A stretch of 64,000 nucleotides of DNA, taken from assembly GCF_016862075.1 (NCBI RefSeq), contig NZ_BOMG01000044.1:62001-126000 (forward strand). Reading direction: 5' to 3'. Both the position numbers and the translations under genes were made by a program. Positions 37,415 through 44,783 of this stretch are shown in pieces. Within the stretch, counting starts at the first letter, position 1. Every line of letters begins with the position of its first letter. The notes under the pieces were generated by a model. It worked only from the letters and a program-made list of their open reading frames with translations. It was not told where the DNA came from and did not search any database. The DNA comes from Actinoplanes couchii. Its GTDB lineage: Bacteria > Actinomycetota > Actinomycetes > Mycobacteriales > Micromonosporaceae.

Positions 37415-37969
37415 CTACTTGCCCGATCCTTCGAAACGGTGGCGATCGAGGAATGTCAGTTGGGCCCGTTTGTGGCCCAGGTCGATGATCGGGCCCAGGG
37501 TGAAGCCCTCTCGCTGTAAGCGGGTGATCATTCGGGTGTTGTGGATATCTGGTTCGGCGATTATTCGGGAGTGGGACCTGTCCGTGAACAGGTGGCGTAG
37601 CAGGGCCGGGAAGACCTTGCTCGTCATGTGGGGGAGGTTCTTGTCGCCGGCGTCCAGGAGCAGGTGCAGGCCGAAGTCGCCGGGCTGGACCTGGTAGCAC
37701 TCGGACACCGGGTCCTCGGCGGGCTCGTATGTCTGGAAGATGCCGATCGCGTGGTCGTCCAGCAGGAGCAGGTAGGCGTGGTGGCTGTCCAGGCCGTCGA
37801 CGAAGGTGTAGATCTCGGACACCTTCTCCACACTGTGGCCTGCCATGCCCCAGAAACGGTTGCGGTCCTTCGTCACCCAGGAGTGCACCAGGGGGGCGTG
37901 GGCCACCGGGTCCAACCGGATCATCACCAGCTCGCCCAGGCCGGGCAGCTTCTCCGTGAAGACGATCAT
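37415..37969 (-). CDS. GNAT acyltransferase of hydroxamate siderophore synthesis, stand-alone
   Basis: 184 residues from ATG 37969, overlapping the preceding stop (ATGA). The siderophore-type acetyltransferase pattern is clear: RLDPVAHAPLVHSWVTKDRNRFWGM at the N-terminus, VQPGDFGLHLLLDAG near 92 and RIIAEPDIHNTRMITRLQREGF near 138. Family members (IucB, RhbD, DesC) acylate an N-hydroxydiamine with acetyl- or succinyl-CoA to make a hydroxamate. It is homologous to the N-terminal domain of the fusion protein at 39756-41960, so the operon has two acyltransferases of possibly different acyl choice. Confidence 0.9.
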   Translation of the reverse strand: MIVFTEKLPGLGELVMIRLDPVAHAPLVHSWVTKDRNRFWGMAGHSVEKVSEIYTFVDGLDSHHAYLLLLDDHAIGIFQTYEPAEDPVSECYQVQPGDFGLHLLLDAGDKNLPHMTSKVFPALLRHLFTDRSHSRIIAEPDIHNTRMITRLQREGFTLGPIIDLGHKRAQLTFLDRHRFEGSGK

Positions 37970-39759
37970 GAGAGGGTTCCGTCCGGTGACAGCCGGTCCC
38001 AGTCGGTGACCAGCGGGATGAGGGAACCTGCTGCCCACAGTGGCAACTGGTCCAGGAAGTGGGGCGACTCCGGGTCGCCGGAGGCGCCGAACGGGACGAT
38101 CCAGCGGCTGCGCGAACGGTCGGCCAGGTCCCACACGTAGCGGGCCACCGGGCCGCGCCAGCACAGGTCGCTGACGCCGGGCACGCTGGCGGTGTTCAGG
38201 ACACACGCCGCCGAGCCGCTCAACCGCACCGGCGGCACGTCGGCGTCGAGCCCGGGCAGCTGGATCGGGTGCAGCAGGTGCCGGTCACCCCAGGCGCCGG
38301 TCTCCCCGGGGCCGGACACGAGCGTGGCCGGATCCAGGCCGAGACCGTCGAGCACCCCGTCCAAGGCGACGCCGATGCGGCCGCGCGGGTCGGTCCACGG
38401 GGCGAAGATCGGGTCGTGGCCGCTGGGTGCGAAAAGCGGCTGGAGTTCGGGGAGTCCACAGACCGCCCGAGCCACCGCCGCCTGCCGCGCCATCCGCTGC
38501 CCAGCCTGATCCGAATCGGACGGCACGTCGGTGTCCATGTGGATCAACTCGTGCGGCACACCGTGGGAGAGCAGGTGGCGGATCCGGTCGGCCCGGCCGG
38601 GCGGTGCGAAATCCACCCCGTAGGGCTCGGTATCGGGTCGCCGGTCGTTGGCGTTGACCGCCGAGGTGACCGGCGACCGGTACATGGGCTCCCACCCGGG
38701 TTCCCACTGGTACCGGGCCTCCCACGCGGGCACCGGCACCAGCCGGTTCCGCTCGTCGCGCTGCGGCACCCGCCCGACCGTCAACTGCAGGGTACGCCCG
38801 GTGGAATCGCTGGTCAGAACGCTGTTGACCGGTTCCACCCACCGCGACAGCGCGTCCGCCACATCGTCCACCGTCGTCGCGTGCAACAACGGCAGAAGGG
38901 CGTCGAAACCCAGATCAAAGGCGACCCTGGCCGGCGTACGCATACTCAGCGCCCCGTCGACGACGGGCCCCCGGGCCGTCTCCACGACATCGACGACGAC
39001 CGGTTCGGAATCCCGTACCAGAATCGTCTCCTGGTGTGCGTCCACCGGCTCCCAGCCGTCCGGGCCGCGCGCCGAGCCGTCCCGCAGTTCCTCGATGAAC
39101 AGGTCCTGATAGTCGGCCATCGCGTTGGTGATCGCCCAGGCCACCGACCCGGTGTGCCCGAAGTGCTGTACCCCGGGGACGCCGGGGAAGGTGAGCCCGG
39201 CGACGTCGAACGACGGGCAGGCGAGACGGATCTGCTGGTAGACGCCGGGCAGCTCGATCAGCCGATGTGGATCCCCGGCGATCTCTCCACCGTTCGTCCA
39301 GGCGTTGCTGCCGGATCCGCCCGGCCCCTCGACGGCGAACCAGGAGACGGCGGCCGGGCCGAGCGTCCGCTCGACGTGCGCCCGCCACATCTTGTTGCCG
39401 ACCGTCCCGAACAGGATCTGCTGCACGAGGAAGACGCCGTACGACGACCACGGATGCCACTCGACGCCGCCGGCCCGGACGCCGTCGGTATAAGCCGCAA
39501 CCCACTCCTGTGTCGATATATCCAAATTTTCGTAGCAGCGACGCGCGGTGTCGTCCAACCGCACCCGCCGCGCGAACCGATCCCACGGCAGCTCGTCAAT
39601 CCCGGCCACCTCGGCGAGCCGCCCCTCGGACCGCCGCTTCTCCACCGAGATCTGGCGGCCCCGATCAAGAGCGGTCACCCGCCCCTGCAAAAAGGCCAGG
39701 TCAAGGACCGAGCCGGCCCGCAGGTGCGGGATCCCATAAGAGTCGCGGTAGAGCTTCAT
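37966..39759 (-). CDS. Penicillin acylase-like Ntn hydrolase of the siderophore operon
   Basis: 597 residues, no signal peptide. It starts MKLYRDSYGIPHLRA, the usual alpha-chain beginning. The autocleavage site is GGSG-SNAW, with Ser about 151 becoming the N-terminal nucleophile of the beta chain; VNAN near 350 matches the conserved oxyanion Asn region. Family members hydrolyse or form amide bonds of acylated amines. Similar genes accompany desferrioxamine clusters in some actinomycetes. Trimming or acyl exchange on the siderophore or a precursor is inferred. Coupled to both neighbours by 4-bp overlaps. Confidence 0.85.
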   Translation of the reverse strand: MKLYRDSYGIPHLRAGSVLDLAFLQGRVTALDRGRQISVEKRRSEGRLAEVAGIDELPWDRFARRVRLDDTARRCYENLDISTQEWVAAYTDGVRAGGVEWHPWSSYGVFLVQQILFGTVGNKMWRAHVERTLGPAAVSWFAVEGPGGSGSNAWTNGGEIAGDPHRLIELPGVYQQIRLACPSFDVAGLTFPGVPGVQHFGHTGSVAWAITNAMADYQDLFIEELRDGSARGPDGWEPVDAHQETILVRDSEPVVVDVVETARGPVVDGALSMRTPARVAFDLGFDALLPLLHATTVDDVADALSRWVEPVNSVLTSDSTGRTLQLTVGRVPQRDERNRLVPVPAWEARYQWEPGWEPMYRSPVTSAVNANDRRPDTEPYGVDFAPPGRADRIRHLLSHGVPHELIHMDTDVPSDSDQAGQRMARQAAVARAVCGLPELQPLFAPSGHDPIFAPWTDPRGRIGVALDGVLDGLGLDPATLVSGPGETGAWGDRHLLHPIQLPGLDADVPPVRLSGSAACVLNTASVPGVSDLCWRGPVARYVWDLADRSRSRWIVPFGASGDPESPHFLDQLPLWAAGSLIPLVTDWDRLSPDGTLS

Positions 39760-41960
39760 GAAGCGATCGGGTTCTCCAGCTCACCGGCGAAGATCAGCGA
39801 GCTGGCCTGATCGGTGAGGTCGACCATCTGCAGCGTGTTGCGCAGCTGCAGCCGGTTCAGGCAGGAGTGTGCGAACGTGGGCCGCAGCAGGTCGAGCCGC
39901 CCGGCCAGATCCGGGTGGTCCTTGGCGTGTTCGCGGACGCAGTCGCCGGCCAGTGACCAGAACTCGGCCGCGCTGAGCACCCCGTCGGCGTCCAGGATTC
40001 CGGCGAGGTGCCGCAGGAAACCGTCGAAGACGTCGGTGAAGATCGCCAGTTCCTTGAACTCGTCGCTGACCGCGATCCGGATCCGTTCGACCTCGGGCGG
40101 CAGTGGCTGGTCGTTCATCACCGCCACCTCCTCGCCGATGTCCTTCATGAACACCCGGGTCGGCACGTGGTTCTCCAGCACCAGGATCAGGTTCTCGCCG
40201 TGCGGCATGAACGCCAGGTCGTGCCGCAGGATGCAGTGCACGACCGGCCGCAGGTAGGCGCGCAGGTAGGTGGCCACCCACGCCGCGGGGGCCACGCCGG
40301 ACTCCCGGATCAGGGCGGTGGCCAGGCCGTTCCCGTCCCGGTCCCGGTGCAGCAGGCTGGCCATGGTGGCGAGCCGCTCCCCCTCGGCCAGGCGCGGCGC
40401 CGGGCTCTCCCGCCAGAGGGCGGCGAGCATCTTCGTGTACGCCGACGGGGTGCCGGTCCGGTGGTAGGCGTCGCCGGTGTACCCGGTCGACGCCAGCTCG
40501 CGCAGCACCCCGAACCGGCAGGCCCGCAGCTCAGCATCGGATTCGACGAGGTCCGCCACCCACTGGTTGATCGGTGGCGTGGCCTGCATGTACTTGGGTG
40601 ACAGCCCGCGCAGGAAGCCCATGTTCTGCACGGCGATCGCGGTCTTCACATAGTGCCGGTCCGGCCGGTCCAGGTTGAAGAACGTGCGGATCGACTGCTG
40701 TGCCTGATAACGATCAGGGCCGGCGTCGAGCGGGACGATCGCCCGGCGGGCCACGTCGGGGGCGAACGTGACGGTGACCTTGTGCTCCCACTGCCACGGG
40801 TGCACCGGCAGGTAGCGGTAGTCGGCCGGGTCCAGGCCGTGGCCACGCAGCTGCTGCTCGAAGTGGGACACCAGATCGGCGCCGAGTTCCGCCTCGAAGA
40901 ACGCGCGCTCTTCCCCGTCGTACACGAAAAGGCTGTTGACCTTGAGGATCGCGACCCACCGCAACCGGACCGGCCGCCCGGCCTCCGGCACGTAGGCCTC
41001 GTGGTCGCGCAGTCCGTAACCGATCCGCCCGTTGTTGGCGACAAAACCGGGGTGCCCCTCGGTCATCGCGGCCTCGATGGTCTGGAAGCTCGCGTGCACC
41101 AGGTCGTCGGCGGTCTCCCGGCGGTGCGCGAACTTCCAGGCGGTCCCGGCCAGGGTCGCCGAGATCTCCTCCAGGTACGTGCCGAGCAGCTTCTCCGGGA
41201 TGCCGAGGGTCTCGCGCAGGCCGGCGATGAAGTCGAGCGCGTCGAGCGGCCCGTCGATCGAGTCGGGGTCGATCACCCAGTGTTCGAGCGGGTAGCGCTT
41301 GGCGTTGAAGGTGTGCTCGCCGAACCGGTACTGCGCGTTGCCGTCGTCCAGGACCGGCGTGATCAGGCGTTCGTGGCTGAACTCGGCGATGGCCTTGGCG
41401 ATCAGCCGCCGGTGCGCGAACTCGATGGCCTCCGGGCTCAGGTGCGGGACGCTCATCTCGTACGCGATCCGGGTGCAGAAGCTGAGCCGCCCGGTCTTGC
41501 CGTGCAGGGGCACGTCATGGTCGACGACGAAGCCGACCTCGGCGTTCTTGCGGTGGATCGCCTCGTTGCGGACGTCCGGCTCGACCACCACCCGTTCGAT
41601 CCGGGAGTCGGCGAAGCAGTGGTCCATCACCGCGCGCATCACCGCGGAGGTGACCCCGGAGCGCTTCCGGGTCGGCGGCGCGACCAGCACGTGCATGCCG
41701 ATGTCGCCGGGGCGCACCTCGTAATGCGGGGCCAGCTCGCTGTGGACCGGGTCGTAGGTCTCGGCGAGGAACAGCGGGGTCTCGTCGTCGTCGAGGCCGA
41801 GCCACACGTCGTAGTGCGGGTTGTCGAGGAACCCCTGGTACTCCTCGCGCACCCGCTCGGGCGTCGCGTCCTGCAACCCCCAGTAGTGCGACCGTGGATG
41901 CGTCACCCATTCATGGAGAAGATCAAGATCACGATCAAGATCGAGCGGTACGAGTCTCAT
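39756..41960 (-). CDS. Acyltransferase-NIS synthetase fusion (GNAT + IucA/IucC)
   Basis: 734 residues from ATG 41960 with a perfect GGAGGTGA. Residues 1-175 are a siderophore GNAT domain (LLHEWVTHPRSHYWGLQ, VRPGDIGMHVLVAP, VVVEPDVRNEAIHRKN). Residues 185-734 are an IucA/IucC domain with GHPGFVANNGRIGYG (ATP-binding region), YLPVHPWQWEH, SIRTFFNLDRPDRHYVKTAI and a FMPHGENLILVLENH segment, then a FhuF-like C-terminal part. NIS synthetases adenylate a carboxylate and join it to an amine. One chain can therefore acylate the hydroxylamine and assemble the product; in desferrioxamine clusters DesC and DesD are separate. Confidence 0.9.
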   Translation of the reverse strand: MRLVPLDLDRDLDLLHEWVTHPRSHYWGLQDATPERVREEYQGFLDNPHYDVWLGLDDDETPLFLAETYDPVHSELAPHYEVRPGDIGMHVLVAPPTRKRSGVTSAVMRAVMDHCFADSRIERVVVEPDVRNEAIHRKNAEVGFVVDHDVPLHGKTGRLSFCTRIAYEMSVPHLSPEAIEFAHRRLIAKAIAEFSHERLITPVLDDGNAQYRFGEHTFNAKRYPLEHWVIDPDSIDGPLDALDFIAGLRETLGIPEKLLGTYLEEISATLAGTAWKFAHRRETADDLVHASFQTIEAAMTEGHPGFVANNGRIGYGLRDHEAYVPEAGRPVRLRWVAILKVNSLFVYDGEERAFFEAELGADLVSHFEQQLRGHGLDPADYRYLPVHPWQWEHKVTVTFAPDVARRAIVPLDAGPDRYQAQQSIRTFFNLDRPDRHYVKTAIAVQNMGFLRGLSPKYMQATPPINQWVADLVESDAELRACRFGVLRELASTGYTGDAYHRTGTPSAYTKMLAALWRESPAPRLAEGERLATMASLLHRDRDGNGLATALIRESGVAPAAWVATYLRAYLRPVVHCILRHDLAFMPHGENLILVLENHVPTRVFMKDIGEEVAVMNDQPLPPEVERIRIAVSDEFKELAIFTDVFDGFLRHLAGILDADGVLSAAEFWSLAGDCVREHAKDHPDLAGRLDLLRPTFAHSCLNRLQLRNTLQMVDLTDQASSLIFAGELENPIAS

Positions 41961-42037
41961 CGGGTCACCTCCGCTGCGCTCCGGTGACCCGACGAGCACT
42001 CAACTGTGTCTATTGATTCGCTCGCAAGCTCGCTCAT
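41957..42037 (-). CDS. 26-codon coupling ORF between monooxygenase and synthetase genes
   Basis: ATG at 42037-42035 overlaps the monooxygenase TGA (CGATGAGC), and its TGA at 41959-41957 overlaps the synthetase ATG (CGATGAGA), so the ORF bridges the gap in frame from stop to start. The product is MSELASESID followed by TVECSSGHRSAAEVTR. It has no RBS of its own beyond upstream coding sequence. Ribosomes reading it would run through the hairpin that hides the synthetase RBS. The MSELASE-type start resembles short sequences that recur in actinomycete genomes. Function as a translational coupler is inferred. Confidence 0.55.
   Translation of the reverse strand: MSELASESIDTVECSSGHRSAAEVTR
41961..41991 (-). 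promoter_or_regulatory. Hairpin sequestering the synthetase ribosome-binding site
   Basis: CGGGTCACC and GGTGACCCG form a perfect 9-bp stem with a 13-nt loop. The synthetase Shine-Dalgarno sequence GGAGGTGA lies in the 3' arm, one base from the ATG at 41960. Without ribosomes arriving from upstream the site should be closed. Confidence 0.7.
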
Positions 42038-43317
42038 CGCTTCACCAACTGACGGGGAATGTCGGCCTTAGGGGCGCCGAACTGCTGGAACGCGATCGAC
42101 TCCTCGACCTTGAAGATCTCCCGGCCGGTGATCGCCTTGAGGATCACGCTGTTCCGGTACGGGCCCATGCCCAGATCAGGATCGGTCACGCTGTGCGTGT
42201 GCTCGGCCGCGTTCTGGACGAAGATCTCGTCCCCGGCGGTGTCCACGGCGTAGTCCGCGGTCACGTCGAACCGGCCGCGGGCGTCCCGGTTGATCCGGTC
42301 CCGGACCGGGTCCAGGAACGACGGAACCCGGTGCTGGTAACCGGTGGCCAGGACCAGCCCGTGGGTGGTCGCGGTGAACGAGTCGCCCTGCTCCTGGTGC
42401 TCCAGGGCCAGGGTCCAGCGCTCGCCGTCCCAGATCACGCCCTCCAGCGCGGTGCTGCTCAGCAGCGTGGTCGGGATCGGGCCGGTGAGGCTCTTGGCGT
42501 ACAGCGTCTCGTAGATCGTGTCGATCAGGTCGCCGCTGATGCCCTTGTAGAGGTTGCGCTGCTCCCGGCCGAGACGATCGCGCACGTCCATCGGCAGGGC
42601 CTGGTGGTACCGGATGTAGTCCGGGGACGTCATCTCCAGGGTCAGCTTCGTGTACTCCATCGGGAAGTACCGGGGCGACCGGGTGATCCAGCTCAGGTGG
42701 TAACCGAACGTCTCGATGCCGTTGAGCAGGTCGAGGTAGATCTCGGCGGCGGACTGCCCACTGCCGACGATGGTGATCGACTCCAGCGTCTGCAGCTGCT
42801 GCTTGGCGGACAGGTAGTCGGCGCTGTGCACGTACGGGCCCTGGTCCACGACGGCCGGCACCCGCGGCTCGGTGCCGATGCCGAGCACCAGCTTGCGGGC
42901 CCGGAACGTCTCACCGCCGGCGGTCTGCACCAGATAGCCGGAGCCGTCGTGGGTGACGGTGTCGACCCGGGTGTTCCACCGGATCGAGGGCAACTGCCCG
43001 GCCACCCACCTGCAGTACGCGTTGTACTCGGCACGCAGCGGGAAGAAGCTCTCCCGGATGTAGAACGGGTAGAGCCGGCCCACCTGCTTGAGGTAGTTGA
43101 GGAAGGAGAACCGGTTCGTCGGGTCGGCCATGGTGACCAGGTCGGCGAGGAACGGCACCTGGATCGTGACGCCGTCGAGCATCAGCCCGGGGTGCCAGTC
43201 GAACTCGGGCCGCTGCTCCAGGAAGATCCCGTCGACGTCCGGCAGATCCTCGGTCAGGGCGGCCAGCCCCAGGTTGAACGGGCCGACACCGATGGCCACG
43301 AAGTCGTACGTACGCAT
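42034..43317 (-). CDS. Lysine/ornithine-type N-monooxygenase of siderophore synthesis
   Basis: 427 residues from ATG 43317, overlapping the decarboxylase stop by one base (TGATG). The FAD site is FVAIGVGPFNLGLA at the N-terminus, the NADPH site is ITIVGSGQSAAEIYLDLL near 195, and the substrate-side motif LATGYQHRVPSFL lies near 340. IucD/DesB-like enzymes hydroxylate the terminal amine of a diamine (cadaverine or putrescine) or of lysine. With a decarboxylase upstream, a diamine is the likely substrate, as in desferrioxamine synthesis. Confidence 0.95.
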   Translation of the reverse strand: MRTYDFVAIGVGPFNLGLAALTEDLPDVDGIFLEQRPEFDWHPGLMLDGVTIQVPFLADLVTMADPTNRFSFLNYLKQVGRLYPFYIRESFFPLRAEYNAYCRWVAGQLPSIRWNTRVDTVTHDGSGYLVQTAGGETFRARKLVLGIGTEPRVPAVVDQGPYVHSADYLSAKQQLQTLESITIVGSGQSAAEIYLDLLNGIETFGYHLSWITRSPRYFPMEYTKLTLEMTSPDYIRYHQALPMDVRDRLGREQRNLYKGISGDLIDTIYETLYAKSLTGPIPTTLLSSTALEGVIWDGERWTLALEHQEQGDSFTATTHGLVLATGYQHRVPSFLDPVRDRINRDARGRFDVTADYAVDTAGDEIFVQNAAEHTHSVTDPDLGMGPYRNSVILKAITGREIFKVEESIAFQQFGAPKADIPRQLVKR

Positions 43318-44783
43318 CAGGCCATCACCGCCGCGGCCTCGTCGCGTTCGCCGGTCATCTCGCGCCCGATCCCGCGGATCAGGTCCAGTACGTCGCGCAG
43401 ATTGTCCATCGTGGTGTTCGGGTTGAGCAGGGTGAACTTGAGCCAGTAGTGGCCGCCGATCCTGGTGCCGGCGACGATCGCCCGCCCGCCGTAGAACAGC
43501 CGCTGCCGCAGTCTCGGCATCAGGTCGTCGCACTCGGCGACACTCAGGTGAGCCGGGCGGAAGCGGAACAGCACGGTGCTGAGCGTCGGCTCGGCCAGCG
43601 CCTCGAAGTCGGAGTCCGCCTCGATCAGCGCGTGCACGTCAGCGGCCCGGTCGATGACCGTGTCGAACATGTCGCCGATCTGGTCCGAGCCCATGGTCCG
43701 CAGCGTCATCCACAGCTTCAGCGCGTCGAAGCGCCGGGTGGTCTGCAGGCTCTTGTCGACCTGGTTCGGCAGGGCCGCGGTCCGCGGGTTGAGGTAGTCG
43801 GCGTGCACCGCGATCCGGCGCATCGTCTCGCCCCGGCGCACCACGATCGCGCTGGAGCTGACCGGCTGGAAGTAGCTCTTGTGGAAGTCGACGGTCACCG
43901 AGTCGGCACGTTCGATCCCGTCCAGCAGGTGCCGGCGGCGCGGGGAGACGAGCAGGCCGCAGCCGTACGCGGCGTCCACGTGCAACCAGATGCCCTGTCG
44001 CTCGCAGATCTCGGCGATCTCCGCGACCGGGTCGATCCGGCCCAGGTCGGTGGTGCCCGCGGTGGCGACGACGGCCATCGGGATGCCCCCGTCCCGGCGG
44101 GCGTCGTCGATCGCGACGGCCAGGGCCGTGGCGTCCATCCGGCCGGTGTGGTCGGTGGCGACACCGATCACCGCGTCGGCGTCCAGGCCGAGGATCCCGG
44201 CCGACTTGCTGACGCTGAAGTGGCTCTGGGTGGTGGCGAAGATCCGCAACCGCTCCAGGCTCGCCGCACGGTTGCGGCTCTCCAGGGCCTCTTCGCGGGC
44301 CAGCAACAGGGCCTGCAGGTTGGACTGGGTGCCGCCGCTGGTGAAGATGCCGTCGGCGCCCGGGCCGAAACCGATCCGGCCGGCCGTCCAGTCGATCAGG
44401 CGGCGTTCGATGAGGGTGCCCGCGGTGCTCTGGTCCCAGGTGTCCACCGACGAGTTGACCGCGGAGATCAGCACTTCGGCGCTGAGCGCGGGGATCGCCA
44501 CCGGACAGTTCAGGTGCGCTACGTAGGTGGGCTCGTGGAACCAGACAGCGTTGTCCAGGTAGAGCCGGGCGACTTCGTGCAGTGCCGCTCCGGTGTCACC
44601 CAGCGGCCGGTCCAGGTCGACGGCGTCGACCTGTTCCTGCAGCTCGGGGACGGTGGCGCCGGAGTACGGCTGCCGCACTGCCTTCACCCGGCCGGCCAGT
44701 AGTGCCGACGCGTGCCACACGCCCGACGTATAGGCGTCGAGTGTGGACCCGGAGAACAGATGCGGTGAATCGGACCGCTCCAA
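43317..44783 (-). CDS. Pyridoxal-phosphate-dependent decarboxylase (DesA-like)
   Basis: 488 residues with a TTG start, 6 bp after GGAGG. Group II decarboxylase fold: FTSGGTQSNLQALL near 148, HVDAAYGCGLL near 265 and the PLP-Lys in VTVDFHKSYFQP near 305. In hydroxamate siderophore operons such enzymes convert lysine to cadaverine (or ornithine to putrescine). First gene of the operon, only 13 bp from the iron box, so initiation of transcription and translation lie very close together. Confidence 0.92.
   Translation of the reverse strand: MERSDSPHLFSGSTLDAYTSGVWHASALLAGRVKAVRQPYSGATVPELQEQVDAVDLDRPLGDTGAALHEVARLYLDNAVWFHEPTYVAHLNCPVAIPALSAEVLISAVNSSVDTWDQSTAGTLIERRLIDWTAGRIGFGPGADGIFTSGGTQSNLQALLLAREEALESRNRAASLERLRIFATTQSHFSVSKSAGILGLDADAVIGVATDHTGRMDATALAVAIDDARRDGGIPMAVVATAGTTDLGRIDPVAEIAEICERQGIWLHVDAAYGCGLLVSPRRRHLLDGIERADSVTVDFHKSYFQPVSSSAIVVRRGETMRRIAVHADYLNPRTAALPNQVDKSLQTTRRFDALKLWMTLRTMGSDQIGDMFDTVIDRAADVHALIEADSDFEALAEPTLSTVLFRFRPAHLSVAECDDLMPRLRQRLFYGGRAIVAGTRIGGHYWLKFTLLNPNTTMDNLRDVLDLIRGIGREMTGERDEAAAVMA

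Follow-up and report, generated by a model that had tools for sequence, protein, structure and literature searches.

A MIRU-like 77-bp element at an ATGA stop/start overlap of a probable siderophore operon of Actinoplanes couchii, and its predicted preservation of translational coupling

The short open reading frame (ORF) between the monooxygenase and synthetase genes of a probable siderophore operon in Actinoplanes couchii very probably belongs to a 77-bp mobile element, MIRU-like and apparently non-autonomous, inserted in the ATGA overlap of these desB-like and desCD-like genes with their coupling kept. On the sequence comparisons presented here, the best reading is that the element represents a family widespread in Actinomycetota that would preserve translational coupling at its insertion sites, its own mini-gene and RNA hairpin probably keeping the next gene translatable. 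Insertion into an ATGA stop/start overlap in this Actinoplanes lineage would leave ATGA at each end; the element would take over the initiation site formerly used by the downstream gene, and would supply the synthetase with a new Shine-Dalgarno sequence (SD) and with a start codon folded in a hairpin. Coupling would survive the insertion because ribosomes ending desB would start the 26-codon mini-ORF at the overlap, melt the hairpin, terminate on the synthetase start and initiate there. The gain would presumably be tolerance of insertion, rather than a fixed ratio of the two enzymes.

The features of the junction are given in Table 1, numbered as in the window, i.e. the whole stretch of 64,000 nucleotides that was analyzed. 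The preliminary description had placed an ORF between the monooxygenase and synthetase genes with an ATGA overlap at each end, and this geometry is confirmed by the coordinates: on the minus strand, the ATG of the mini-ORF (42037-42035) shares bases with the TGA stop of the monooxygenase (42036-42034), and its own TGA stop (41959-41957) lies within the ATGA (41960-41957) that forms the synthetase start. The 26-codon product is MSELASESIDTVECSSGHRSAAEVTR. By Des nomenclature, we take the monooxygenase to be DesB-like and the siderophore synthetase to be DesC-DesD-like. The probable operon around the junction extends over 37415-44783 (minus strand) and encodes a pyridoxal-dependent decarboxylase, the monooxygenase, the fused GNAT-IucA/IucC synthetase, a penicillin-amidase-like protein (PF01804) and a second GNAT protein that is 33% identical to the first GNAT of the operon; an acylase-like (penicillin-amidase-like) gene within a siderophore operon is judged unusual.

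Table 1. Coordinates of the element and its neighbors in the window
Feature	Position	Strand	Basis or detail
Inserted 77-bp element, left ATGA included	41961..42037	-	Exact empty site in locus L063; 10 genomic core matches; R1 match 41957-42037
Right ATGA	41957-41960	-	
26-codon mini-ORF including stop, ATGA overlap with both neighbors	41957..42037	-	Sequence
Conserved 5' module ATGAGCGAGCTTGCGAGCGAATCA	42014..42037	-	Kept among copies; relaxed form in many actinobacterial genera
Hairpin, 14 pairs	41956..41996	-	Arms 41983-41996 and 41956-41969, loop 41970-41982; folding, covariation among copies
GGAGG, Shine-Dalgarno-like, element-borne, 7 nt 5' of the synthetase ATG	41968..41972	-	Sequence
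Upstream gene, L-lysine/L-ornithine monooxygenase family (DesB-like)	42034..43317	-	PF13434, E 1.2e-114, for 42037-43320
Downstream gene, GNAT + IucA/IucC + FhuF fusion (DesC-DesD-like synthetase)	39756..41960	-	PF13523, PF04183, PF06276

The element is one copy of a dispersed family. With up to 2 mismatches allowed, its 21-nt core is found 10 times in the genome of 11.46 Mb (6 exact), and because the reversed control yields 0 occurrences, this recurrence is not attributable to chance. Eight of these occurrences, the window copy and seven more, are full intergenic elements, and the other two share the 5' part only; in seven of the eight full copies the ORF closes on the next start, and in one (82 nt) it continues into the next gene. 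The eight full copies were used to build a covariance model, R1, which gives 20 matches in the same genome at E ≤ 10, comprising the eight full elements at E ≤ 8.7e-20, three partial matches at E ≤ 8.5e-4 and nine weak matches whose E values are 0.0165 or higher. At E ≤ 0.001 R1 matches 25 of 60 sampled relatives (the own genome counted), 23 of these 25 being among the 36 genus genomes; one congener, G021, holds 74 matches, with some neighbors in tandem at an offset of 77 bp. At E ≤ 1e-5, with up to 23 candidates scored per genome, matches occur in 127 of 200 family genomes, representing 24 of 44 genera, and in a phylum sample in only 2 of 396 genomes. R1 is therefore a family-level subfamily model, and beyond the family it is the 5' module by itself that carries the claim. 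An initial scan of named genomes, whose scope possibly left out the own-genome records, found 0 occurrences. For analysis of the copies a set of 117 units at 99 sites (83 single, 14 double, 2 triple) in eleven genomes was assembled, mostly from best R1 hits, which favors intact copies.

The preliminary description also held that a perfect 9-bp stem buries the synthetase SD. A stem is indeed present; it is longer than proposed, with 10 uninterrupted Watson-Crick pairs and 14 pairs in total, one of them G.U, the outermost pair using one base past the right ATGA. The window hairpin folds at -30 kcal/mol with a z-score of -6.47 (-2.91 with more flank, 131 nt), and the 81-nt stretch at the synthetase start of the closest relative has z +0.98, i.e. 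no special structure. Burial of the SD is only partial, its unpaired probability in the window copy being 0.29 (0.49 without the 5' arm), and it is the start codon that is concealed more, at 0.03 (0.81 without the 5' arm). Over 108 units of 81 nt the median unpaired probability of the start codon is 0.04 with the hairpin and 0.76 without the 5' arm; that of the SD goes from 0.43 to 0.48, a small effect. These folding calculations predict that the hairpin conceals mainly the start codon and the SD less, and it may thereby block independent initiation of the next gene.

The stem also covaries among copies. In the first eight, 15 cells are altered on both sides, compared with 6.2 in shuffles, and 0 of 500 shuffles reach this value; two of the five measures are weak, the number of pairs altered on both sides being reached in 88 of 500 shuffles and the number of pair types in 44 of 500. 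Over the 117 R1 matches 91 cells are so altered, compared with 33.7 when shuffled (0 of 500), and all slid controls lie far lower; this larger alignment was fitted to R1 and is therefore biased towards the model, and its pair at columns 54-117 is unpaired in 94 rows. With E values up to 1 admitted, an Rfam search of 41700-42300 matched none of the described structured RNA families.

Considered alone, the geometry at 41957-42037 and the hairpin over the synthetase start codon would suit a dedicated coupler, evolved within the operon, that holds monooxygenase and synthetase in ratio. This is what the preliminary description proposed, but the comparison of junctions makes it very unlikely, and the proposal is not upheld: the same element lies dispersed at unrelated junctions, and among 60 genus genomes searched, none of the 20 besides the own genome that have a near-full-length synthetase carries it at this one. 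In 19 of these 20 congeners the junction is a bare 4-nt stop/start overlap, ATGA or GTGA, and in the remaining one a longer overlap. Since all 20 are without the element and 19 have the bare overlap, the overlap, which itself permits coupling, is older than the ORF. In the closest congener (L063, 92% identity) the same flank runs straight into ATGAGACTCGTACCGCTCGA, an exact empty site relative to which the window has 77 bp more, with ATGA at both ends.

Sites elsewhere in the operon and genome likewise alternate between filled and empty states. Copies stand at the next junction, between the synthetase and the penicillin-amidase-like gene, in L063 and in one further congener (L066), and the 19 remaining loci, with that of the window among them, are without the element there; both of these copies (L149, L155) are 80 nt long, with a broken frame and a stop just before the downstream start. 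For each of the seven further full copies in the own genome, the joined flanks were used as queries against 12 congeners and the loci then aligned. An empty site, seen as an unbroken match through xTGA, was found in at least one relative for five of the seven (L016, L017, L019, L020 and L021); L018 had no homologue in the set of aligned loci, and for L022 the alignment covered one side only. Matches that split around R1 hits place a copy at the L016 site in G021 and at the L021 site in G010; these two junctions, filled there and empty in other species, reflect either shared old insertions or repeated hits on the same target. Filled and empty sites in sister species amount to gain or loss of what is a putatively mobile unit. 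The monooxygenase/synthetase junction thus constitutes a natural experiment, in which a bare overlap and a mini-ORF with hairpin can be compared as means of coupling.

Over the whole unit set the ends and the frame are largely kept. Of the 99 sites, 93 have ATGA at both ends, and 87 are flanked on both sides, in register, by ORFs that span 50 codons or more or reach the edge; of the other 12, ten miss the upstream ORF and two the downstream one. With the unit ends of L142 and L124 set by hand and L163 left endless, 116 of the 117 units enter the frame count, and in 109 of them the frame closes on the next start, with a 4-nt overlap with the neighbors; the seven with frame-breaking lengths include L149 and L155, the two copies that lie between the synthetase and the penicillin-amidase-like gene. 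The frame is open in all 103 distinct 81-mers, compared with 91.9% expected from independently resampled columns. These counts favor the view that the frame is kept at copies elsewhere, and together with the covarying pairing they comport with the earlier suggestion of an ORF running through a hairpin, which would be melted by ribosomes translating it. The flank 5' of the element is G-rich and Shine-Dalgarno-like (98 sites), and because of this the mini-ORF seems to inherit the earlier initiation site of the downstream gene. At the same 98 sites, G (77%) and C (79%) are preferred 3' of the right ATGA, giving ATGAGC as in the first bases of the element itself; this bias reflects a target preference beyond ATGA, or merely the usual second codon.

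The 5' module has a wider distribution than R1. In relaxed form it occurs in at least 120 stretches of named genomes, with Micromonospora, Pseudonocardia, Nocardia, Nocardioides, Kitasatospora, Amycolatopsis, Saccharothrix and Mycolicibacterium among the genera matched, and also in Acidimicrobiia MAGs. The matches listed in named genomes comprise 131 units, all 131 with TGA at the start position. Among these matches, 110 of 131 units have at this position the end of an upstream ORF that spans 50 codons or more or reaches the edge, and a downstream xTGA start can be assigned in 108, leaving 23 with none, 12 of which run on as fused N-termini. Closure of the mini-ORF on the downstream start is found in 90 of these 108 listed units and fails in 18, a count in which the first fitting downstream start was taken and some short lengths (e.g. 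53), possibly misassigned, were retained against closure. Two subfamilies read one nucleotide motif in different frames, as SELASESS, with closure mostly at 78-81 nt, or as SERSERII, mostly at 84 nt. This use of two frames with closure mostly kept agrees with the prediction that selection acts on the frame rather than the peptide, which appears to be the case here; the preliminary idea that the frame counts for more than the peptide is borne out both by the closure of the Actinoplanes-derived units and by the two subfamilies.

Two further explanations bear on these data. In one, ORF and hairpin are by-products of movement, with ATGA as target and a terminal palindrome, and play no role in translation. 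Such a process would account for ATGA at both ends, tandem units, the palindrome at the element 3' end and the base bias 3' of the right ATGA, and DNA processing can make palindromes covary; movement alone does not explain closure at several lengths (mostly 78, 81 and 84 nt) in two frames, nor the excess of open 81-mers, and we consider this explanation unlikely. In the other, the mini-ORF peptide has a function of its own, to which the near-constancy of its first eight residues, MSELASES, in Actinoplanes units would point. We regard this as highly improbable, since in related elements the same nucleotides, read in a different frame, yield SERSERII, the conservation of the 5' module holds at the nucleotide level, and searches of the peptide against Pfam and NCBIfam gave no match. 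A mobile element whose mini-ORF and hairpin preserve coupling therefore remains the preferred reading.

In several loci (L246, L254, L259, L262, L272, L273, L283 and L297) the downstream protein begins with the 5' module, joined to it in frame and read as MSELASESS... or VSERASESS..., and some annotated N-termini are for this reason element-derived. At L276 (Pseudonocardia humida) and L261 (an Actinophytocola MAG) the 5' module alone forms short in-frame tandem arrays at an ORF start, in which ELASESSAQR and ERASESSTQG, respectively, are repeated. Annotation should thus allow for the small ORFs and extended N-termini (MSELASESS..., MSERSERII...) that arise from such elements.

With respect to known systems, ordinary ATGA-overlap coupling through a shared stop/start is the state seen in 19 of the 20 congeners; here, in contrast, two overlaps flank an inserted mini-ORF and hairpin. 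REP elements are short, dispersed palindromic repeats without an enzyme of their own and are associated with RAYT/Y1 transposases. The element described here is also short, dispersed, palindromic and without its own enzyme, but unlike REP/RAYT systems it keeps a bridging ORF. A Y1/RAYT transposase was considered as mobilizer and set aside: comparison of PF01797 across congeners identified no mobilizing enzyme, the family being present in 7 of the 23 congeners that carry copies and in 4 of the 13 that do not, and so not commoner in the former. Of the four genomes, besides the own one, that have the highest numbers of matches, G021, G019 and G010 have PF01797 and G025 lacks it. Apart from the MIRU literature already known, none of the open-licence papers listed describes such an element, and the two listed for an 11-base string have unrelated titles.

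The closest likeness is to mycobacterial interspersed repetitive units (MIRUs). A passage of a review (PMC12548453), which cites Supply et al. 1997 for them, describes short dispersed intergenic repeats, apparently mobile, that insert at start codons and contain an ORF coupled to the following gene at -4 nt, a layout that the element here appears to share. In the part of PMC4213456 that concerns senX3-regX3, MIRUs of 77 bp and 53 bp are placed between senX3 and regX3 and given as limited to M. leprae and the M. tuberculosis complex; the element here has a 77-bp period. Like a MIRU, it is a short dispersed repeat (8 full own-genome copies; 74 G021 matches), lies between co-directional genes (87 of 99 sites), has an internal ORF overlapping both neighbors by 4 nt (109 of 116 units) and occurs both singly and in tandem, in the proportions given above.

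A mycobacterial MIRU-like core was used as query in genus g8, which we take to be Mycobacterium, and matched 180 of 396 genomes, with 0 for the reversed control among the matches listed. The repeats so found show 53-bp spacing in several tandem arrays, and from this spacing we presume them to be MIRUs. At 25 of 30 g8 loci a frame that is open over 12 codons or more ends on the downstream start, a start codon not being demanded. They share with the element here the motif GAGCGMAGCG shortly 5' of a purine-rich SD, but R1 has no credible similarity to the 30 g8 loci (best E 0.24), and the element differs from MIRUs in sequence, host range, its own 5' module and a long stem reaching the start codon. 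Because sequence homology to the mycobacterial units was not found, the element is called MIRU-like and not a MIRU: the likeness is one of anatomy, and any common descent conjectural. MIRUs might nevertheless be one branch of an Actinomycetota-wide superfamily of mobile, ATGA-targeting couplers, with a frame-closing mini-ORF and a start-codon hairpin, that spread through operons at low cost, keeping the frame open while peptide, frame and stem vary; this wider claim draws on one 5' motif and a presumed MIRU core, and for that reason we take it seriously without quite favoring it. The anatomy in itself suggests that MIRU-type elements, which are used in tuberculosis strain typing, have architectural counterparts across actinobacteria.
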